Source of the DNA: Streptomyces fragilis
GTDB lineage: Bacteria > Actinomycetota > Actinomycetes > Streptomycetales > Streptomycetaceae
Length of the DNA: 64,000 bases
Assembly (NCBI RefSeq): GCF_003112515.1
Contig: NZ_BEVZ01000006.1
Location: forward strand, 62,001-126,000
Reading direction: 5' to 3'
Shown: in pieces, positions 15,256-52,799 of the stretch
How positions within the stretch are numbered: position 1 is the stretch's first letter
Layout of the letters: every line of letters begins with the position of its first letter
The notes under the pieces: model-generated
What the model was told of the DNA's origin: nothing
What the model saw: the letters and a program-made list of their open reading frames with translations, nothing else
Databases searched by the model: none
Made by a program: the position numbers and the translations under genes

Positions 15256-15336
15256 GCCGGTCCCCGGACCCGGGTGGCGGACCCCGACGGAGTAGTTCTT
15301 CTTGAGGTCCGCCGTCCCGGGTCCCAGTCTTGTCGT

Positions 15337-16800
15337 ATGGGCATCCAGCCATGGGTGATCGTCGAGGCGCCCGACGCCCGCGGCCTCCGCAAGGTCGTGA
15401 TCAACGGCGAGGTGGTGGGAAGCGCCTGGTCGTTCGACGAGCTGGTGAGGATCCTCGGCCGCCTCGGCCACCCGCCGTCCATGGACATGGACGACCCGGC
15501 CACCGTGCTCTGGCGCGGTGGCGACCGCGCGGCCTGGCCCGATCGCCCGTGGCGCAGGCGTGCCACCGCGGCCGTGATGCTCCTGGGCCTCCTCGCCTCC
15601 GCCGTGCTGCACATGCTGATCGGCTGGCCGGACGCACTGAAGGCGCTGACCTTCGCGCAGAGGATCGTCGGGGCCATCTTCGTCCTGGCGGGCTTGGTCC
15701 AGTGCGTGGCGGCGGCGGCGGTCTTCGACCACTTCGGCCGGCGGCACGCGAGGGCGTCCGGCGCGCTCGTCCTGCTGGGCGCCTTCATCGCCCTCCCCAC
15801 CAGCGCGACGCTCATCTTCATGTGGCTGGAGGAGCGGGAGTACACGCCGTACCTGCTGGTGTTCGTGCCGCTGTCGCTCTGGTCCGTGTGGGCGTTGTTC
15901 CTGCTGGTCCGCGAAAAGGCGTGGAGAGGTGTTCCACAGCCGAAGAAGTTCGCCGCCGGCGTGCTCTTCAGCGGCCTCCTGACGGCGGTCAGCCTCGCCT
16001 ATTCGACGATGTACCAGCCCACCGCGGAACCGATCCGTTTCGTCCTCAAGGCGACGTTCGGCCGGCCGCAGACGGACACCGACTCCGACTACGTCGCCGT
16101 CCCCCTCACGCTGTACGTGAAGAACGACGGGGGCATCCCCGTCTACATCGTCAACGACGACTACACCGTGTGGGGGTCGGCGTTCAGCCGTTCCAAGGAG
16201 GGCGAAGGGCTGCGGAACTGGGCGCAGGACACCAAGTTCCGTTACGTCCCGGAGGCCGAGCGCTACGCCCGGGCCAGCGACAGGGAGGTGCTGCGGACGG
16301 GGCACTTCTACGGGCCCGGCGCCTGGCTCGACGCCGGCGAGGAGTTCTCGTCGCAGAAGGTGGTCAGGCTCCCGAAGGACGCCCCCTACAGCGAGCTGGA
16401 AGCGACCGTGGGGATGAACTACATGCGGAAGGACCGCGGAAGGATCGAGGACCGGTTCGGCTCCCCGGTGTTCTCCTGGGACCGGAACAACAGGCGGTTC
16501 TACTGCCCGCCGGAGAAATGCGGGGAGAACGTCGTCTACCACGGCCGGGTGCTGCACAACAACAATCTGGTGAACGTGACGCGCAGGCCGAGGTACATCA
16601 CGGCGATCTGGAGTCCGCGCCGAGGACCCAGCGTCTTCATCTCGTCGTTCGACTTCACCCGCAGAGGCCTCTACGTCTACGGCGAGAGCATCGACAAGGC
16701 GGAGGTGGCGAGGGAGAAGAACCGGTTCGGCACCGCGATGATCTCCGCCAACGCGAAGCTGCTCACGTCCGGCTTCCTGACCCGCCCGGGTGACGGGTGA
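15337..16800 (+). CDS. Membrane protein of unknown function with extracytoplasmic domain
   Basis: 487 residues, not assigned to a family. The first ~80 residues are cytoplasmic (IVEAPDARGLRKVVINGEVVG). Four hydrophobic helices lie at roughly 85-105, 115-140, 150-170 and 178-195, with a fifth near 210-228 (AAGVLFSGLLTAVSLAYS). The remaining ~255 residues form an exported, Tyr/Arg-rich beta-type domain with two cysteines (CPPEKC). The start at 15337 was chosen by homology-like N-terminus and spacing; the frame is open 21 codons upstream. Follows the secreted proline-rich gene on the same strand. Confidence 0.7.
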   Translation: MGIQPWVIVEAPDARGLRKVVINGEVVGSAWSFDELVRILGRLGHPPSMDMDDPATVLWRGGDRAAWPDRPWRRRATAAVMLLGLLASAVLHMLIGWPDALKALTFAQRIVGAIFVLAGLVQCVAAAAVFDHFGRRHARASGALVLLGAFIALPTSATLIFMWLEEREYTPYLLVFVPLSLWSVWALFLLVREKAWRGVPQPKKFAAGVLFSGLLTAVSLAYSTMYQPTAEPIRFVLKATFGRPQTDTDSDYVAVPLTLYVKNDGGIPVYIVNDDYTVWGSAFSRSKEGEGLRNWAQDTKFRYVPEAERYARASDREVLRTGHFYGPGAWLDAGEEFSSQKVVRLPKDAPYSELEATVGMNYMRKDRGRIEDRFGSPVFSWDRNNRRFYCPPEKCGENVVYHGRVLHNNNLVNVTRRPRYITAIWSPRRGPSVFISSFDFTRRGLYVYGESIDKAEVAREKNRFGTAMISANAKLLTSGFLTRPGDG

Positions 16801-16833: not shown

Positions 16834-17805
16834 TCAGACCTTCCCGTCAGGCCCGTCGGGTGTGTTCGCCGTGTGGAGGTGGGGCGGGGCCGGCCAGTCC
16901 CGGGAGAGTCCGAGGCCGACGACGCTGGTGAGCGGCTCGCCCCAGGTGCGGCCCGGCCGGGGGTCGGTGAGGAACCAGCACGCGACGTGGTCGTCCAGGA
17001 CTCCGCGGCTCGAGGGCAGGTAGCAGGTGAACAGCGGCTGCTCGCCGATGCCGAGGCCGTGGAGGGCGGCGACGCGTGGTGCGTCGCCGACGACCAGGCG
17101 GGCCCTGGCCCCGCGGCCCACGGCGACGTCGGCGGCGCCTTCGAAGTAGACGACGGACCTCATCAGCATGCCGCGGAAGGCGCAGTAGTTGACCGCGCCC
17201 GTGCGCAGGGGCAGCGCGGTCGCCGGCGGGCGCTCCACCTCGATGCGGGTGCCCGCGCGGCCGTCGACCTCGTAGGTGCTGGAGACGGTGGAGTCGGTGA
17301 CGGTGAAGTCCAGGTTGGCCTGGTGCTTGGGCATGCCCCAGATGCCCTTCCCGCCCTTGACGGATATCTCGCTGCTGACGGGCAGGTCGAGCACGTACTG
17401 CCCGGTGCCGAAGGCCCGCGGCAACAGCCCCGGCAGCAGTGGCGGCGCCGGGCGGGGGCCGTGGGTGCAGGCCAGGGCGATGGAGTACTCGATGTACCGC
17501 CCGATGTCGGTGCTGCGGTAGTCGATCACCGTGACGACGAGCAGCCCGTGTCCGCCCGGGAGCGTCAACGGATGCAGCTCGCCCCCCGGCAGCAGCCGCG
17601 CCGCCGCGCGGCGGTCGACGGGGAAGGCGGCCATCAGCACCGGTGAGACGTTCGAGTTGACCGGCATCCGGAACGGGATGCCGTCGACCAGGGCGTGCCG
17701 GCCGGCGAGGCGGCGCTGACGCCTCGGGTAGGGGGACGGCAGGGCGTGCATCAGGGGCCGGACGAGGGCCGGGAGCCCGGGGCGAAGGGCCTTGGGGGTG
17801 CTCAT
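16834..17805 (-). CDS. Acetoacetate decarboxylase-fold protein
   Basis: 323-residue protein of the acetoacetate decarboxylase (ADC) superfamily, suggested by the KGGKGIWGMPKH stretch near residue 150 and the double-barrel pattern. True ADC enzymes use a Schiff-base Lys in this area. Many family relatives act instead as aldolase-dehydratases, so no reaction is claimed. No signal peptide. It is the last gene of the four-gene operon and overlaps the alpha/beta hydrolase stop by 4 bp (ATGA). A 34-bp gap to the convergent membrane protein holds a CCCCG/CGGGG hairpin. Confidence 0.75.
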   Translation of the reverse strand: MSTPKALRPGLPALVRPLMHALPSPYPRRQRRLAGRHALVDGIPFRMPVNSNVSPVLMAAFPVDRRAAARLLPGGELHPLTLPGGHGLLVVTVIDYRSTDIGRYIEYSIALACTHGPRPAPPLLPGLLPRAFGTGQYVLDLPVSSEISVKGGKGIWGMPKHQANLDFTVTDSTVSSTYEVDGRAGTRIEVERPPATALPLRTGAVNYCAFRGMLMRSVVYFEGAADVAVGRGARARLVVGDAPRVAALHGLGIGEQPLFTCYLPSSRGVLDDHVACWFLTDPRPGRTWGEPLTSVVGLGLSRDWPAPPHLHTANTPDGPDGKV

Positions 17806-18875
17806 CGGGCCAGCTCCTCGAGGATCAGGGGGAAGGTGTCGCGGGCGGCCCGGCGTCCGAGGAAGACATCGAGGTGCCCGTAGCCCGGCAGGACGTGCAG
17901 GCTGTCGCGGCCGGGGCGGTGACGCCGCAGGAAGTCGTGGGTCCGGCGCTGGCTGTCGGCGAGGAAGCAGCGGTTGTCCTGGCCGGCCAGGAGGACGAAG
18001 CGGGCGTCGGTGCGGGGCGCCTGCCCGGTGAGTGACGGCGGCAGTCCCGGCACCGCTCCGGTCGTCACCAGGTGCCCGGCCCGCACGCACCGGTCCATCT
18101 GGGCGAAGAAGGTCATCGGGACCTCGGCGAACTCGCCGCGGACCCAGTCGTGCGTCGCGTCGTCGAGGTGGGCGTGCGACCACAGGGCGGGCCACCCGCT
18201 GCCGTAGGTGAAGCTGACCATCCGGCACACCCGGTTGCGGCACTCGGGGTGGGTGGCCCGTACGCCCTGGACGAGCAGCCAGGGGACGAGGCCCCGGGGC
18301 CGGTCGCCCCAGGCCGGGGAGATGTACGGCGTCACCCGGCTGATCACCGGCGCGAGGCGGCCGATCTTGAAGGTGGAGAGTCGGGGGATGACGGGGTGCA
18401 GCGAGACCGCGTTGCTGACCACGGTGTCCACCTCGGGCAGCAGTCCCGCGGCGGCGGCCATCGTGAAGGAGGTCGAGCCCTGGCAGTGCACGACGGCCTT
18501 GAGCCGGTCCGCGCCCGTCGCGGCCAGCACGTGCGCCACCGCGGCCGGGTGGTCGTAGGCGGCCGCCTGGTCCAGCGTCCACGGCGTCGGGTCGAGGTCG
18601 ATCGACGCGCGCCAGTTGAGCAGCCACACGTCCCAGCCCTCGTCGATCAGGGCGTCCACCAGGGTACGGGGCGAGGGCGGACGGAAGATCTCCGCCCGTA
18701 CGCCCGCGCCGTGGACCAGCAGGACCGGGCCGCGCGTCGGCGGGTGACGTCCTCGGACGTGGACGAGGGTGAGCGGCCGTCCGTCCAGCGCGGTCAGCGG
18801 TCTCACCTCGGTGACGTGGTGCCGGCGGGTGGTGGGCCGCGCCGGGCGGGCCCGGGACGACGGTGCCGAGGTCAT
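17802..18875 (-). CDS. Alpha/beta hydrolase with PhaC-like Cys nucleophile elbow
   Basis: 357-residue alpha/beta-fold protein. The oxyanion region is LLVHGAGVRAE and the strand-5 elbow reads VVHCQGSTSF. Cys thus replaces the usual Ser, as in the G-x-C-x-G box of polyhydroxyalkanoate synthases. A late Asp (LLAGQDNRCF) and GYGHLDVF give the other triad residues. Its lid region is large. Substrate unknown; an acyl or ester product of the upstream oxidoreductase is a reasonable guess. Translationally coupled on both sides by 4-bp overlaps, so production is tied to the operon. Confidence 0.8.
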   Translation of the reverse strand: MTSAPSSRARPARPTTRRHHVTEVRPLTALDGRPLTLVHVRGRHPPTRGPVLLVHGAGVRAEIFRPPSPRTLVDALIDEGWDVWLLNWRASIDLDPTPWTLDQAAAYDHPAAVAHVLAATGADRLKAVVHCQGSTSFTMAAAAGLLPEVDTVVSNAVSLHPVIPRLSTFKIGRLAPVISRVTPYISPAWGDRPRGLVPWLLVQGVRATHPECRNRVCRMVSFTYGSGWPALWSHAHLDDATHDWVRGEFAEVPMTFFAQMDRCVRAGHLVTTGAVPGLPPSLTGQAPRTDARFVLLAGQDNRCFLADSQRRTHDFLRRHRPGRDSLHVLPGYGHLDVFLGRRAARDTFPLILEELAR

Positions 18876-20740
18876 GGTTTCCTTGCCTCCCTCGCGATCA
18901 CGACCGGCTCCTCGATCAGGCTCACGGACGGCAGCCGTACCGGGACGGGCCGGCCCCCGCCGGCCGGGTCCTTCGTCACCTCCCAGTCGCGGCAGACGCC
19001 GTCGAGGAGGAGGGGGTGGACGGTGAGGGTGCCGTCGGGTGCGATCCGTATCCGCAGGAAGCCCTTGTGGTCGTCGACGGACTGGCCCGACATCTGCCAT
19101 TCGCACACCGTGCCGTGACGTGCCGACAGCAGCCACAGGGCGAACGCCTCGGAGCCCGCGAGGGCGCCGACGACGCCGGCCAGCAGCAGGCAGAGCAGCA
19201 GGACCGTCCAGCCGGGCCAGCCGGGCGGGAACGGCAGGCTCGCGGCGGCCACCAGCGTCAGGAGGGCCACCACCGCCTGCAGGACGACGGCGACGGCCGG
19301 TCTGGGAGGCCGTCCGGGGGCGGCCGTCCGCGGCCCGCCCGCGGGTCCCGGTCGCCGGCGCGCCGGTCGCACCAGCCAGGGCACGGCCGTGACGGCCGCG
19401 ACCACCGCGGCGAAGGCGCCCGCGAAGCGCAGGACGTCCGCCCAGCCCGCCGTGCGGACCGCCTCGACGGGTCCGGTGCCCAGGGACGCACCGAGCAGGA
19501 GGGCGGCGAGCAGGAAGAGCACGATGTGCAGGCCGCCGGTCAGCAGGCCGAAGCCGGGGTTCCGCCGGGTCAGCCAGAACCGCTTCCACGGTTGCGCGAT
19601 GCGCCGGGCCAGGCCGCGGGATTCGCCGCGCGACGGGTGCGTCCGCGGCGCCAGGCAGAAGTCGGCCGGGTCGTCCTTCTCCCGCAGGCGGGCCTCCGGC
19701 GGCGGCAGGCGCAGCCGCTCGGGCAGCCGGTGGGTGGCCGTCAGGTAGGCGCCGCCCAGTCCGCAGGTCAGCATCTGCCGCCGGCTCGCGTCGGGCGGCG
19801 GTTCGCGGGCGTCCGGCGGGTCGGTCGGGAGCAGTTCGGCGTAGCGGGCGTAGTGGTGCCGGTCCCCGGTCAGCCACAGTCTGACCGAGGCGCCGGTCGG
19901 GGTGCGCGCGCCGGTCTCCCGGTCGGTGAGGCGGGTGCGGACGATGTTGCGGTCGAACCAGTGCAGGGCCTCGAAGGCGTCGGGGTCCCCCTCGGCGCAC
20001 TTGACCCAGGCGGGCACGGCGGAGCAGACGATGACGCCGTCGCCCGGTCGCAGCCGGGACGACAGGTGGGTCTCGAAGAAGCGTAGCTGGGGTTCGTCGA
20101 AGTAGGACTCGAACTGGCTGTCCAGGCCGGCCAGCCACCAGCCCTGGGGCAGCTGGACGACGAAGTAGCTGCGGGTCTGGCGGGTGCGCCAGCCGCCGAT
20201 GTCCCGTTGCTGGGCGAAGACCCGCAGGAAGGAGGTGAGACCGTCGTACCAGTCGTGGTTGCCGGGCAGCGCGACCATCAGCGGGCCGGGACCGGTGGGC
20301 AGCGCGGCCCGGTAGGGGCCCGTCGTGCGGTTCTCGTAGGCCTCCGCCGAGGCGACCGGGTAGACCTCGTCGCCGCCGAGCACCAGCAGCGAGCCCCGCG
20401 GCAGACGACTCGGCCCGCCCTGCGGCCGCTGCACGGCGAGGTGGTCCTGGGCGAGGGTCCAGGCGACGGAACTCGTCGCGTCGAAGCCGTCCCCGAGGTC
20501 GGCGGCGTAGTCGAACCAGGTCTCCGTGGCGTCGGGGCTGTCCAGGGGCGCGCGGAGCGGCTTCGCGTCCAGGGCTCCCTGGATCTCCCGCTTGTCCAGG
20601 TAGTCGGCGAACGTGACGCCGAGCACGACCTTGCCGACGGTGCGGGCCAGCTCGCCCGGTTCGAGCCAGCGGACCTGTTCCTGCGGGACGAAGGGCAGCG
20701 CGAGCTCCTTCGCGCGCCGGTGCAGTTCGCGCGTCCTCAT
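18872..20740 (-). CDS. Membrane-anchored metallophosphoesterase-like protein
   Basis: 622 residues. The N-terminal ~370 carry calcineurin-type phosphoesterase motifs GGDEVYP, PGNHDWYDG and LTGDRHHYARY, although the first D-x-H block is not obvious. Four hydrophobic helices follow at about 385-540, then a ~75-residue soluble tail. The order (catalytic domain before the helices, no signal peptide) suggests the active site faces the cytoplasm. Substrate unknown. It overlaps the GMC gene end and the hydrolase start by 4 bp each, so it belongs to this operon rather than acting alone. Confidence 0.8.
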   Translation of the reverse strand: MRTRELHRRAKELALPFVPQEQVRWLEPGELARTVGKVVLGVTFADYLDKREIQGALDAKPLRAPLDSPDATETWFDYAADLGDGFDATSSVAWTLAQDHLAVQRPQGGPSRLPRGSLLVLGGDEVYPVASAEAYENRTTGPYRAALPTGPGPLMVALPGNHDWYDGLTSFLRVFAQQRDIGGWRTRQTRSYFVVQLPQGWWLAGLDSQFESYFDEPQLRFFETHLSSRLRPGDGVIVCSAVPAWVKCAEGDPDAFEALHWFDRNIVRTRLTDRETGARTPTGASVRLWLTGDRHHYARYAELLPTDPPDAREPPPDASRRQMLTCGLGGAYLTATHRLPERLRLPPPEARLREKDDPADFCLAPRTHPSRGESRGLARRIAQPWKRFWLTRRNPGFGLLTGGLHIVLFLLAALLLGASLGTGPVEAVRTAGWADVLRFAGAFAAVVAAVTAVPWLVRPARRRPGPAGGPRTAAPGRPPRPAVAVVLQAVVALLTLVAAASLPFPPGWPGWTVLLLCLLLAGVVGALAGSEAFALWLLSARHGTVCEWQMSGQSVDDHKGFLRIRIAPDGTLTVHPLLLDGVCRDWEVTKDPAGGGRPVPVRLPSVSLIEEPVVIAREARKP

Positions 20741-23200
20741 CGCGGCCCCTCCCGTGCCGGCCCGGGCGCGTAGACGTCCCACAGTTCGCCCAGGAACAGC
20801 TGCCCGAACCGCTGCAGTGCCCGTACGCGGTGCGGGCCGTCGGTCCGGAAGGTGGTCATCTGCTGCGCGAAGTCGTCCGGCCTGATGGTGAGGACGCCCG
20901 CCCCGACGACGGGGGCGCCCTCGTCGTCCTGCCGGGCGACGTGCCCGGCGAGCAGGCGGACGTACAGGGTGGTGGTGTCCTTCCAGACGTCGGCCCCGGG
21001 GTCGTCCCGGATCTCCTTGTGACCGGCCAGCGTCACCGGGTTGCCGCCCGGGTCCCTCAGTTCGAGCCGGTAGAGCATGCGCCGGGCGGACGCGTCGTCG
21101 CCGCGGGTGAAGAGGTTGAAGGACCCGCGCTCGACCGGCAGGCGGCCGCCCAGGGCGTCGCAGTCGACGTGCCCGGTGGCGACGGCGGGGTGCGCCGGGT
21201 CGTCGACGAAGCGCTCGGCGTCCTCGGTGGTGATCGTCAGCCGGAACGCCAGCCGTTGTCCGAGCTGCGTGCCCCGTTCGCGTCCTCGCAGCGGGTCCTG
21301 CTCGTCGAGGGCGGCGTAGCCCTTCATCTCCTCGGTGAAGGACAGCGCGGTGGGCCGCTCCGCGGCCCCGGTCCCGTCGGGCTGCGCGGTCCCGTCGCCG
21401 TCCCGCGGTTCCGCGGGCGGCGGTGGGCGCCCGTCGGCGCGACGGGGCGCCGCGGTCTCCCGGTCCAGGAGGCGGTCGCAGGCACGGTCGGCGAAGGCGG
21501 CGATGGTCAGGGACGGGTTGGCGCCGACCGGGCCGGGCAGCGCCGAGCCGTCCAGGACGTACAGGCCGGGGAAGCCGAAGACCTCGCCGAAGGAGTCGCA
21601 GACTCCCTCGCCGGGGTGCCGGCCCATGGGGGCGCCGCCGAGGGGGTGCACGGTGATCACCCGGTGCGACCACCAGAGCGGGTTGTCACGGAACTCGGCG
21701 CCCAGTTCGGTGCTCAGGTCGCTCATGACGGACCGCAGTCGCTCGAAATAGCGCAGCGACGTGGCGGTGGTCCAGTCGACGTCCAGGTAGCCGTTGCGCA
21801 GGCTCATCCGGCCGTCCGGCACGTCGCGGCCCATGCCGAGCAGCGGCAGGGAGGCGTCGGAGAACTCCGCCGGTCCCAGCAGCGTCGACAGCTGGCGGCC
21901 GATGTTGCTCCGCGGGCTGCGGCCGAGCCGGGCCCGCAGCCGGTGGGCGGCGAAGGCGAGCATGCGGCGGGTGGTGCCCGGCATCTGCGCGGCCTCGGCG
22001 AGCCAGTCGACGAACGCGGGGTAGCCCGCGTCCTCGACATAGAAGCCGCGCCGGGCCGGCCCGGCCGGCTCGGCGCCGTCGCCGGCGGGGCCGTCGTGCT
22101 CGTCGAGCGTGTCGCCGACGCGCACCGCGCTGGTGATCACCGGTCCGGTGCTGCTGCGCAGGCTGCGGGGCGCGCCGTCGGCGTCGGTGGCGTGCAGCAG
22201 CAGGCCGAGCAGGTCTCCGTTGCCGCAGAAGCGGGTGCCCAGGGCCCCGCTGACGCCGGGCAGTGCGGCGCGGTTGCGGAGCAGCAGGTAGGTGGTGCCG
22301 AAGGTGCCGGCCGCGAGGACCAGGCGTCGGCAGGCGATCCGGTGGACGGGGAGGCGGTCGGTCGGCGTCCGCCGGCCCTCGGCCTCCTCCTCGTGCACGA
22401 CGTAGCGCACCTCGTAGCCCTCGTCCGGCAGGGGCGCGAAGCCGCGCACCTCGCAGCGGGTGCGCAGGTCGGCGCCGTGGTGCGCGGCGGCCGACAGGTA
22501 GGTGTGGTCCAGGGTGTTCTTGGAGCCGTAGTTGCAGCCGACGTCGCACTCGCCGCTCAGGCGGCAGGTGCTTCGGGGCATGCCGTGGAGGTTGCCGTGG
22601 TCCGGTTCGTCGATCGGTGGCTCCGGGGACGGGTGGGGCGCCGGGGCGGGGCGCGAAGGAGACGGCGAGCGGGGGCCGCGAGACGGGGAGGCCGGCCTTG
22701 TCCGCGGCCTCGTGCAGCGCGACGGTCTTGGGGGTGTCGTGGTACGGGTAGGGGGTGGCGCCGAGCATCCGCTCGACGCGGTCGTAGTGGGGGTCGAGGT
22801 CCTGCCGCCCGAGCGGCCAGTTCTCGTAGCCGCCTCCCGGCAGCGGTGACTCGTGGACGAACCACCGCTCGTCCTTGCGCAGGAGGACGTTGGCGTAGAT
22901 CAGTGAGCCGCCGCCGAGCCCGCTGGAGACGACCCCTTCGAGACCGCGGAAGGACCACAGGTCGAACAGGCCGTGCAGGCCCTCGCTGGGGTCCCAGAAG
23001 TTGCGGGACATCGCGGCGGGCGAGCGCGCGAAGCTGCCGGGCGGGTACGGCTTGCCCCGCTCCAGCAGCACCACCGACCGTCCGGCCTCGGCCAGGCGGT
23101 GTGCTGCGACGGACCCTCCGAAGCCCGAGCCGACCACCACGGCGTCGGTCGTCTCCGTGGGGGTGGGCGGGCGCTGGGCGGAGCGGTTGTGGCTGGCCAT
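20737..23200 (-). pseudogene. GMC-family oxidoreductase (cholesterol-oxidase-like), frameshifted
   Basis: Flavin-dependent alcohol oxidoreductase split over two frames. The N-terminal part starts at ATG 23200 (GGGAG upstream) with the FAD motif VVVGSGFGGSVAAHRLAEAG and runs to about 22625. The rest lies in another frame, resuming at PPIDEPDHGNLHG, then CRLSGECDVGC, the GMC C-terminal block HPLGGAPMG and VGANPSLTIAAFAD, and a ~230-residue extra domain beginning SFTEEMKGY. The break sits at a short C/G run near 22621-22630; the total length is 3n+1, so one extra base (or two missing) explains it. If repaired the protein is about 820 residues. Could be a true mutation or a sequence error. Confidence 0.8.
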
Positions 23201-23366: not shown

Positions 23367-23436
23367 GCGCAGGCGCGGATCCCTTCCGAACGGGCCGCCG
23401 AGCGCAGGCGCGGATCCCTTCCGAACGGGCCGCCGA
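23367..23436. repeat. Perfect tandem duplication of 35 bp
   Basis: Two exact head-to-tail copies (23367-23401 and 23402-23436), each starting GCGCAGGCGCGGATCC. They lie upstream of the GMC operon promoter region and 14 bp after the end of the phosphodiesterase gene. Each copy contains TTCCGAACGG, a possible half-site. Function unknown. Confidence 0.9.
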
Positions 23437-23449
23437 CGGTGCCCGCCGG

Positions 23450-24193
23450 TCAGACGACGACGCGGTAGTGGGTGGTCAGACGGCCGTCGTCGTCCAGGAG
23501 GTGGTAGGCGATGCCCGGCGGCTGGTCGCGGTCGGCGGGGGCGTCGCCCTCCCACGGGAGGCGGAGGGTCCAGGTGACGGCCGGGCCGACGATCAGCGGG
23601 CGGCCGGCGAAGGTGGAGGCGGCCGCCGTGTGCGCGTGGCCGGTGAGGACGGCGACCACGGCCGGGTGCGCGTCCAGCAGGGCCGCGAGGTCCTGGGGCC
23701 GCTGGAGCCTGCAGGAGTCGGGCAGCGGGTGGTGCAGGTCCACCGGCGGCTGGTGGAAGGCGAGGAGCGCCGGGACGCCCGCGGGCAGGGCGGTGAGCTG
23801 CGCGTCCGCCCACTCGAGGGTCTCGGCGTCCAGGAGGCCCTCGTCACGGCCTGGGACGGTCGCGTCGATCATCAGGACGGCGGCGCCGGCGACGCGGTGG
23901 GCGCGGTTGACGGGGCCGTCGGAGGGCTCCTCGCCGAGCAGGGCCTTGCGGTAGGCCGGGCGGGCGTCGTGGTTGCCGGGGCAGGTGAGGACGGGGAACG
24001 GGACCCGAAGGACGCGGGCGGCCTCCTCGTACTCCGCCTCGGTGCCGTGGTCGGCGATGTCACCGGTGACCAGGAGCGCGTCGACCGGACGGGGCAGTGA
24101 CCGCAGGTGCTCCATCACGCGTTCGGCGCGCCGGGTGGCGCGCTCACTGCCGTCCAGGTGTAGGTCGCTGATCTGTGCGAGCAGCACCGTCAT
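23450..24193 (-). CDS. CpdA-like class III phosphodiesterase / metallophosphoesterase
   Basis: Compact 247-residue calcineurin-fold phosphoesterase with the complete metal site: ISDLHLDGS, VTGDIADHG, CPGNHDARP, AFHQPP and LTGHAHT. This order matches cAMP phosphodiesterases of the CpdA/Rv0805 class, though relatives act on other phosphodiesters. Cytoplasmic, no signal peptide. Start ATG at 24193. Its upstream region contains seven 8-bp tandem repeats and, beyond these, the divergent CGNR regulator. It is separated from the GMC operon by the 35-bp tandem duplication and is probably transcribed separately. Confidence 0.88.
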   Translation of the reverse strand: MTVLLAQISDLHLDGSERATRRAERVMEHLRSLPRPVDALLVTGDIADHGTEAEYEEAARVLRVPFPVLTCPGNHDARPAYRKALLGEEPSDGPVNRAHRVAGAAVLMIDATVPGRDEGLLDAETLEWADAQLTALPAGVPALLAFHQPPVDLHHPLPDSCRLQRPQDLAALLDAHPAVVAVLTGHAHTAAASTFAGRPLIVGPAVTWTLRLPWEGDAPADRDQPPGIAYHLLDDDGRLTTHYRVVV

Positions 24194-24343: not shown

Positions 24344-24368
24344 AACGGAAAAACTCTCGTTTTCCGTT
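24344..24368. promoter_or_regulatory. Operator-like inverted repeat at CGNR promoter
   Basis: AACGGAAAA, 7-nt spacer, TTTTCCGTT: a perfect 9-bp inverted repeat. It overlaps the expected -35 position of a promoter whose -10 is TAGGGT at 24377-24382. This suggests autoregulation by the downstream CGNR protein or control by another repressor. Confidence 0.65.
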
Positions 24369-24432
24369 GGAGACAGTAGGGTGCACCCGGGGGCGTCGGC
24401 AAGCGGCCGGTGCCACGACGGAGGGAGGCCTG

Positions 24433-25047
24433 ATGGAGCGGCGGTTGGTGCTGGAACTGGCGAGCACGATCCGCCACGACGGGAGCGGCGGCGTGGCGGA
24501 CGATCTCGCCACGGCGGAGGGCGCCACGCAGTGGCTCCGCGCGTGCGCGGACCTGCTCGCCGCGGACCTGACGGACGGTCCGGAAGTGGTGGACGATGCC
24601 TTGCGGGGGGAGATCGTCGGGGTGCGGCGTGCGGTCCGGGCCCTCTTCGCCCGGGCGGTCGCTCCCGGCCCGCCGAGTTCCGCCGACTCCGCGCGCCTGA
24701 TGCCGTTCGACGAGGCGCTGGACCGGCTCAACGCGGCCGCCTCGCGTGCGGCGGTGGTGCCGCGGCTCGAGTGGCCGGCGGCGGGCGCGCCGGCCGTCCG
24801 CACGGTGCCCGCGCAGGACGATCCCGCCGCGCGGCTGGTGGCGGCACTGGCCCGCGACGCGATCGGCTTCCTGGCGGGGCCGCAGCGCGAACTGCTGCGG
24901 GCCTGCGCCGCGCCGCGCTGCGTGCGGTATTTCGTCAAGGGCCACGGCCGGCAGGAGTGGTGCGGCACCTCCTGCGGGAACCGCGCCCGGGCGGCCCGCC
25001 ACTACCGGCGTCACCGCGGGGAGCCGGACGGCCCCGCCCCGTCCTGA
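24433..25047 (+). CDS. CGNR zinc-finger (ABATE domain) transcriptional regulator
   Basis: 204-residue regulator of the DUF1470/ABATE-CGNR family. The N-terminal ligand-sensing region is helical (residues 1-150). The C-terminal treble-clef finger reads CAAPRCVRYF, then WCGTSCGNRARAARHYRRHR, giving four Cys and the name-giving CGNR. ATG with GGGAGG upstream. It faces a UvrA-like ATPase gene with only 31 bp between the stops. CGNR proteins often sit beside the genes they control, so it may respond to a compound handled by that ATPase (inference). Confidence 0.9.
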   Translation: MERRLVLELASTIRHDGSGGVADDLATAEGATQWLRACADLLAADLTDGPEVVDDALRGEIVGVRRAVRALFARAVAPGPPSSADSARLMPFDEALDRLNAAASRAAVVPRLEWPAAGAPAVRTVPAQDDPAARLVAALARDAIGFLAGPQRELLRACAAPRCVRYFVKGHGRQEWCGTSCGNRARAARHYRRHRGEPDGPAPS

Positions 25048-25078: not shown

Positions 25079-27484
<2,406 letters not shown>

Positions 27485-27750
27485 GACGTCCTCCAACGTG
27501 GCGGGGAAGGGCTGCTCCGGCGGCTGTGCAGGGGCGGTCGGCGTCCGGGTGTCCCGCGAGGTCGCGGACGCCTCGGCCCAAGATCGGCCACGCCGGCAAC
27601 ACTAGACGCCCGCACCGACAACGCGGGGTCTTTCCCCGGCCTGGTCCGGCCTGCCCTGAATCGGCTCCTTCGGGGTATTCGCGTGTTCGGACGACGGGCG
27701 GTGCGCCGCTCGTCGTCATGGACAACGAGCGAGGACGGGAGGTGATCGTC

Positions 27751-33684: not shown

Positions 33685-33690
33685 TAGGGT
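33685..33690 (+). promoter_or_regulatory. -10 element of the cobN operon promoter
   Basis: TAGGGT ends 3 bp before the predicted P1 stem of the B12 riboswitch, so the transcript would begin at the aptamer. Similar TANNNT elements stand at the other two riboswitches (TACGGT, TAGGCT). Confidence 0.55.
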
Positions 33691-33790
33691 GAGGGCCACT
33701 TCTCGTGGTGCAGGAACCCGGTGCGATTCCGGGGCGGTTCCGCCACTGTGACGTTCCCCGGTTCGGGGACGCAGCCAGACACTGGCCACG
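33691..33790 (+). ncRNA. Cobalamin (B12) riboswitch 1, upstream of cobN
   Basis: The sequence shows the B12 aptamer landmarks: GGTGCGATTCCGG, the core GCCACTGTGA and the B12-box-like GCAGCCAGACACTGG. P1 can form between 33694-33698 (GGCCA) and 33783-33787 (TGGCC). Downstream, CGGGG/CCCCG forms a small hairpin just before the GAGGGAGG ribosome-binding site, so control is probably at translation. High adenosylcobalamin should switch off cobN-cobF-cobQ-cobK. Confidence 0.92.
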
Positions 33791-33840
33791 GGTCGTCCGA
33801 CCGTCGTACGGGGCGAGAACCCCGAGGGAGGATCACGGCC

Positions 33841-47107: not shown

Positions 47108-47151
47108 GTGAGGCTCCCGCTCGTTTCGCCATCCGTAAAGGGCGGGCGCGA

Positions 47152-47254
47152 GGCCGGTCTTCGGACTTGCCGAGTCCTCGTGAGCGAGGCTCGGTTCACC
47201 GCAGCGGGCCTGTGCCGGAATCTCACCGGGCTTCCCAGATTCTCCCCGCCGGCC
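47152..47254 (-). ncRNA. Cobalamin (B12) riboswitch 2, upstream of the chelatase operon
   Basis: On the minus strand: GGGAAGCCCGGTGAGATTCC, then GCGGTGA and AAGTCCGAAGACCGGCC, the actinobacterial form of the B12 box. P1 pairs 47249-47254 with 47152-47157 (GGCCGG/CCGGCC). A TACGGT -10 (47279-47284) is placed so that transcription starts near the aptamer. It lies 45 bp before the chelatase ATG and should control chelatase-cobO-cobB/C-cobD. Confidence 0.92.
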
Positions 47255-47314
47255 GTCCTCACCGTTTCCGATGGCTGGACCGTAGGGGCACCTCGTGCCG
47301 TTGAAGGACCACGA

Positions 47315-52485: not shown

Positions 52486-52552
52486 GCGAGTCCTTCGAGG
52501 TCAGGGGCCCGTTCGCGGGGTCCTCGGTCGACCTGGCGGCCCGTCACCGCCA

Positions 52553-52732
52553 GCGCCAGCAGGTCTTCGGACTCGGGTTCCTCCGGTTCGGGCGCCTTCC
52601 CGGAGCGTCGCTCCAGTGGCTGCGCGGCGCCTGTGGCGCCCACGCGTGCCCGACCGTCACCCTCACCGCTGCGCGTCAGTCCCGGACTCTCACCGGGTTC
52701 CCTGACCCCACCTCGTGGAGTTCGACTGGCGC
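52553..52732 (-). ncRNA. Cobalamin (B12) riboswitch 3, upstream of cobG
   Basis: Minus strand: GGTCAGGGAACCCGGTGAGA, then GCAGCGGTGAGGGTGACGG, an extended variable arm, and GAGTCCGAAGACCTGC. P1 pairs GCGCCAG (52726-52732) with CTGGCGC (52553-52559). A TAGGCT -10 (52737-52742) puts transcription start at the aptamer. Larger than the other two aptamers because of the long peripheral stem. Controls cobG-cobH-cobIJ-cobM. Confidence 0.92.
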
Positions 52733-52799
52733 GACGAGCCTACCGTGCCGGGCGGACCGCGTGGGTGGGGGCCTCGATGCGGGGGGTTAAGGTCCGGCC

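Follow-up and report, generated by a model that had tools for sequence, protein, structure and literature searches.

Do four neighbouring genes that are not a known combination make up one pathway, or do they share an operon by chance? This question is raised by a locus on the minus strand of a 64-kb stretch of DNA (the window; G+C content 74.6%), which belongs to a genome of 6.85 Mb in 18 contigs whose best named matches are Streptomyces. The genes encode, in this order, a GMC oxidoreductase (GMC), a membrane phosphoesterase (PE), an alpha/beta-hydrolase (HYD) and an acetoacetate-decarboxylase-like protein (ADC), and GMC carries an extra domain (X). An undescribed pathway had been proposed in an initial annotation of the window, and this proposal is supported by a gene order kept in distant actinobacteria, by fusions in other phyla and by the fact that no description of the set was found. 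As judged from sequence, the gene set is probably a genuine module, which would oxidise a hydrophobic alcohol and transfer or hydrolyse its acyl groups at the inner membrane.

Conservation of the gene order

Gene neighbourhoods were surveyed around PE in the best 80 of 541 confirmed loci, a set ranked by PE similarity and not random (L-numbers below denote the loci compared). By profile scanning, GMC, X, PE, HYD and ADC were found in that order at 22 of the 80 PE-found loci, so the expectation that the order is shared with other genomes was borne out. At 21 of these 22 loci three further genes come next, for two small membrane proteins (TMa and TMb) and a patatin, and X was detected again on the patatin in 19 of the 21. 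The four genes of the window are the front part of this operon, a shortened form of the seven-gene arrangement. Single-linkage clustering of the flanking genes returned TMa, TMb and patatin-X as the kept neighbours; the other clusters were confined to few loci and by eye looked like genus synteny. Other arrangements among the PE-found loci were GMC, X and PE with a distant HYD (one locus), GMC, patatin-X and PE (four), and GMC-X and PE with a divergent X-HYD (two).

The genomes of the phylum were also searched with ADC (E 1e-30). For each genome five first-look candidates were scored, so that the survey counts are lower bounds. Among the six genomes found besides our own, the cluster includes GMC in five and HYD in five. 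L126 and L127 have all seven genes, PE preceding GMC and no X being detected on the patatin in L127; L128 has HYD, ADC, TMa, TMb and patatin-X, with no GMC or PE on its contig; L129 and L130 (the latter a 4-kb contig) have GMC, X-HYD and ADC without PE; and L131 has a partial GMC plus ADC. A search of the genus around G423 found ADC in one of four genomes, too few to use.

Within Streptomyces, L111, L113 and L114 have seven genes and L112 the first four alone. What looks like a stub of TMa closes the operon in L021 and L112, which indicates that the last three genes have been lost elsewhere as well. Weaker HYD matches, three of them short, were obtained in 56 further Streptomyces genomes, and the context was read in 10 of the approximately 53 with a full-length distant HYD (L096-L100, L115-L118 and L176). 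It can be seen that HYD stands ahead of GMC-X in L116-L118, and that L115 holds HYD, X, a weak patatin match and GMC inside 7 kb. No convincing match to patatin, TMa or TMb was found in the window (best E 0.22). A homologue of patatin-X was not found in our genome either; this search had no positive genome, so its empty answer shows little.

Domain X and its fusions

The extra domain on GMC, first described as having about 230 residues, is real, and its size is about 206 residues. Its AlphaFold2 model (pLDDT 91.6, pTM 0.86) consists mainly of antiparallel strands plus a C-terminal helix. The copy in the window has no Pfam match, and its profile search against PDB sequences returned nothing at E 10; with Pfam on 41 aligned members, only two weak single-member matches were obtained (E 0.023 and 0.036). 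Fold searches gave no significant relative; a fold missing from these lists is not thereby excluded. The best Foldseek hit was a retinol-binding protein at E 0.012, and the best Z score, 8.6, was reached with assorted unlike barrels; lipocalin/calycin barrels are candidate relatives of X at this level of similarity. X appears to be undescribed as a domain family.

X was found as the C-terminal domain of GMC, of patatin and of carrier-thioester reductase proteins, as the N-terminal domain of HYD, as the middle domain where GMC and HYD are fused, and on its own. When 396 genomes of the phylum were surveyed at E 1e-8, X was located at 24 places in 19 genomes. At 21 of the 24, our own included, GMC, HYD, patatin or thioester reductase lies in the same open reading frame (ORF) or fetched locus, and GMC is present at 19 of those 21 (once 4 kb away). 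The remaining three places are two contig ends and one fragment.

GMC, X and HYD are fused in this order in Azospirillum, Leptospira, Rhizobium, Bernardetia and Variovorax. In the first four the annotated proteins are plasmid-borne, measure 1,120 to 1,169 residues by their coding-sequence coordinates and are called 'alpha/beta fold hydrolase' or 'GMC oxidoreductase'; the Variovorax fusion is an unannotated ORF of 1,284 codons. PE lies 34 bp upstream of the Azospirillum fusion. In Pseudonocardia, GMC, X and HYD are three genes, HYD being divergent, and in Cupriavidus PE adjoins GMC, the 19.6 kb of retrieved DNA holding neither X nor HYD. An Ensifer protein of 1,908 residues (L133:8902-14628) combines GMC and HYD with a PhoD-like phosphatase; it has no detectable X, and by eye its HYD part likewise contains the Cys, Asn and His residues discussed below. 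ADC gave no match at any of these loci, Pseudonocardia and Cupriavidus included. These fusions tie alcohol oxidation, acyl chemistry and phosphate release together in several phyla.

Carrier-thioester reductase-X proteins adjoin HYD in L091 (a Rhodococcus plasmid), L097-L100 and L176. The upstream gene was scanned in four of these six loci (L091, L098, L099 and L100), and in all four it carries the KR, dehydratase and condensation domains of a hybrid polyketide/peptide synthase, with an acyl transferase in three of the four as well. Beside such a synthase, thioester reductase-X and HYD are possibly a chain-release pair. The whole set might then serve biosynthetic tailoring, that is, build a lipid-like secondary metabolite, X and HYD working on reductively or oxidatively released chains and HYD acting as a Cys acyltransferase that forms an ester or amide. 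Besides these synthase neighbours, the sparse occurrence of the operon among genomes and a sub-threshold Anthrone_oxy match of TMa fit this explanation, as does the transferase activity of PhaC and of other alpha/beta enzymes with a Cys. However, there is no synthase among the seven genes, clustering of the flanking genes (which were not annotated) gave no further partner kept across genera, and the annotated Leptospira and Bernardetia stretches hold their GMC-X-HYD fusions away from synthase genes. We consider tailoring somewhat unlikely for the operon, but a serious contender.

Enzymes and the pathway they may form

HYD matches Abhydrolase_1 of Pfam (E 2.5e-8). A profile of 25 HYD sequences matched gastric lipase (PDB 1hlg) at E 3.6e-20 over positions 3-335 of 338, and lysosomal acid lipase and PHA synthases more weakly; one of the three top PDB matches is a cholesteryl-ester hydrolase. 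The Ser, Asp and His of the lipases align with Cys131, Asn301 and His334 of HYD. In 58 HYD sequences, aligned to a profile that some of them helped build, Cys and Asn are present in all 58 and His in 56 (Tyr in L116 and L117). Thus HYD shares the profile match and the triad places with the gastric and lysosomal acid lipases (1hlg, 1k8q, 6v7n), but it has Cys for Ser153 and Asn for Asp324 (we take the lipase triad to be Ser153, Asp324, His353) and so lacks the Ser/Asp pair of that family. We know of no other Cys-Asn-His triad on an acid-lipase fold. HYD had been called a Cys-type, PhaC-like hydrolase. The Cys nucleophile, which it has in common with PHA synthase PhaC, was confirmed, but HYD is closer to the acid lipases: the class III PhaC model of NCBIfam gives 21.2 bits against a cut-off of 365.3, and the acid residue of PhaC is Asp instead of Asn.

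ADC is a member of the acetoacetate decarboxylase family PF06314 (E 9.9e-18; 64.9 bits against a gathering cut-off of 29.8), with which it shares the Lys in GxPK. This residue, Lys160 in GMPKH and the candidate Schiff-base lysine, is invariant in 17 of 17 aligned sequences and is also found in one annotated family member. ADC differs from the family in the His after the lysine and in that even its profile has no match among PDB sequences, so no enzyme of known mechanism was aligned. A lysine so well kept would suit a catabolism that cleaves carbon-carbon bonds, in which GMC turns a beta-hydroxyketone into a diketone, HYD splits the diketone and ADC removes carbon dioxide from the keto acid, a route that resembles the breakdown of polyvinyl alcohol. 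Such an order makes chemical sense for the three activities, but no such hydrolase is among the 16 PDB matches of HYD, ADC has no match in the six fusion loci (Azospirillum, Leptospira, Rhizobium, Bernardetia, Variovorax and Ensifer), and the phosphatase and patatin are left unexplained. This scheme seems improbable.

GMC matches GMC_oxred_C of Pfam (E 2.3e-16), and the solved structures nearest to it are those of cholesterol oxidases. In L008, a relative with an intact gene, GMC matched cholesterol oxidase at E 2.3e-25, with the HPLGG (His) and NP (Asn) motifs near the C terminus aligned; both motifs, whose His and Asn are the catalytic residues of cholesterol oxidases, are present in the GMC piece of the window. 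The phmmer alignment of L008 leaves out the region of the isomerase glutamate, which we take to be Glu361. The operon GMC thus has the flavin adenine dinucleotide (FAD)-GMC family and the His/Asn motifs in common with class I cholesterol oxidase (1coy/1b4v), but differs from it in bearing X, in sitting in an overlapping operon and in falling far under the NCBIfam cut-off: with NF058674 the two pieces in the window score 81.7 and 107.1 bits, against 850. These scores speak against an ordinary steroid catabolism that begins with a cholesterol-oxidase-like step, which we regard as very improbable in spite of the solved relatives of GMC and the cholesteryl-ester hydrolase matched by HYD. That the set is an ordinary operon of unrelated genes, each of a family common on its own, can be practically dismissed because the order is conserved and the same parts recur in several different fusions.

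The hydrophobic segments of PE fall within residues 395-538, where its model has four long helices; none above threshold was found in the GMC pieces, HYD or ADC. The metal-binding motifs GD, GNHD and HH, which PE has in common with calcineurin-like phosphoesterases, are invariant in 32 of 32 members. At E 0.1 the window PE has no Metallophos (PF00149) match; 27 of the 32 aligned members have one, the best at 2.5e-5. From calcineurin-like phosphoesterases and from PhoD, whose domain stands in PE's place in the Ensifer fusion, PE is set apart by its C-terminal membrane helices and beta domain. Its profile has no match among PDB sequences, and Foldseek returned nothing below E 0.9, an absence from the fold list that excludes nothing. 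A second, separate calcineurin-like phosphoesterase is encoded on the strand of the operon and upstream of it (23453-24190); it is cAMP-phosphodiesterase-like, under the curated cut-off, and only 10 columns were aligned between it and PE by hhalign.

Our preferred reading, held tentatively, is that the window contains the front part of a conserved operon for a membrane-side multi-enzyme pathway, in which a hydrophobic alcohol is carried as an acyl ester or phosphoester. The alcohol might be sterol-, polyprenol- or long-chain-like. PE, together with patatin and HYD where present, would free or transfer a phosphate or acyl group, and the alcohol so released would be oxidised by the flavin enzyme GMC, giving a ketone or aldehyde. 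The X barrel on GMC, patatin, HYD or thioester reductase might hold the greasy substrate and pass it between partners. With its Cys-Asn-His triad, HYD would more likely be an acyltransferase or thiolytic enzyme than a simple esterase, and the conserved lysine of ADC would act on the resulting keto compound. The parts, their order, their overlaps and fusions and the conserved residues are observed; the sequence of reactions, the substrate class and the part played by X are inferred. A greasy ester or phosphoester is what one would expect from the kinship to acid lipases and cholesterol oxidases, from the patatin and from the membrane helices that PE carries; the Cys-Asn triad and the pairing with thioester reductases point to acyl transfer more than to simple hydrolysis. 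A hydrophobic substrate handled at the membrane, as first suggested, is therefore plausible, also in view of the patatin, TMa and TMb that follow at 21 of the 22 loci. If it is a lipid alcohol, an unknown bacterial lipid pathway would be revealed. It is also possible, and proposed with more reserve, that GMC, X and HYD are a new, widespread redox-acyl system, in which X would carry a hydrophobic intermediate between flavin oxidase or thioester reductase and the Cys-Asn-His transferase, with phosphatase and patatin as accessory release enzymes. What began as a curiosity of a single genome thereby becomes an enzyme module open to testing, with an unassigned domain family, X, and a Cys/Asn acid-lipase triad.

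The component superfamilies are known, and their combination appears to be undescribed. No description of the gene set was found in the open-access literature, which leaves out most subscription papers; by their titles, PMC12542777, PMC3322136, PMC10531008, PMC5915685, PMC6080401, PMC5371717, PMC6515984 and PMC9866976 deal with other subjects.

Several points weigh against the proposed pathway. First, PE is without the other operon genes in the fetched DNA of 51 of the 80 loci and does not stand between GMC and HYD in L127, L129 and L130, which indicates that PE is not a fixed part. HYD with thioester reductases also occurs without GMC. The operon is sparse: ADC was found in at least 7 of the 396 phylum genomes and HYD, at 79-100% identity, in at least 5 of 392 Streptomyces genomes, our own included in both counts. 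Ligand binding by X, modelled as a barrel, is only a guess because no significant fold match was obtained. Finally, the window copy of GMC is broken. From its start at 23200 the conserved N-terminal stretch runs in one frame to 22625, and the remainder, from 22581 to the stop at 20737, in another; the starts of the two matched segments are 520 nt apart, against 519 nt in L008, L021 and L111-L114. The break near 22.6 kb may be a real mutation or an assembly error. With GMC frame-broken and none of the last three genes next to ADC, the pathway may be in decay in this genome, unless the break is such an error. The dN/dS values of 0.17-0.52 (six gene pieces against four relatives) indicate that the operon genes were under selection until recently, so that the loss of the intact GMC frame, if real, is recent.

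Layout of the operon and its neighbourhood

The features of the operon are collected in Table 1. All three junctions are 4-bp ATGA stop/start overlaps, as first annotated, but GMC is not one open frame as that description implied. Such overlaps suggest translational coupling of the operon genes; the claim that they fix the stoichiometry was overstated. Of the 30 junctions checked in frame in six Streptomyces relatives, 24 overlap by ATGA or GTGA, so the four-letter overlaps are not kept at all junctions. The PE/HYD overlap is absent in four of the six (L008, L021, L111 and L112) and the TMb/patatin overlap in L008 and L111, with a gap of about 1.4 kb there in L111.

Table 1. Positions of the operon features in the window.
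Feature	Position	Strand	Basis
GMC N-terminal piece (FAD-binding), 192 codons of conserved frame	22625..23200	-	frames, family matches
Stretch with broken GMC frame	22582..22624	-	frame differs on either side; 520 vs 519 nt spacing
GMC C-terminal piece with HPLGG and NP motifs, plus linker	21427..22581	-	
X domain, about 206 residues, predicted antiparallel beta-barrel	20740..21357	-	
GMC/PE overlap, 4-bp ATGA	20737..20740	-	
PE, 622 aa: calcineurin-like metallophosphoesterase domain, then membrane helices, small beta domain	18872..20740	-	
PE/HYD overlap, 4-bp ATGA	18872..18875	-	
HYD, 357 aa: acid-lipase-type alpha/beta-hydrolase, Cys131, Asn301, His334	17802..18875	-	
HYD/ADC overlap, 4-bp ATGA	17802..17805	-	
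ADC, 323 aa: acetoacetate-decarboxylase family, Lys160 in GMPKH	16834..17805	-	

A 508-aa ORF on the plus strand (15274-16797) is convergent with the operon, ends near the ADC stop and occupies the place of TMa in the seven-gene relatives; it has no Pfam or NCBIfam match at E 0.01. Upstream of the GMC start there is a perfect 35-bp tandem duplication (23367-23436), the core pattern of which has no other match in the window. Further upstream, an ABATE/CGNR zinc-finger gene (24367-25044) lies near an 805-aa ABC-ATPase on the minus strand (25082-27496), which has an ABC_tran match and, by its motifs, is presumably UvrA-like. Three cobalamin riboswitches are also present in the window, at 33689-33804 (plus strand), 47135-47299 (minus strand) and 52541-52744 (minus strand).

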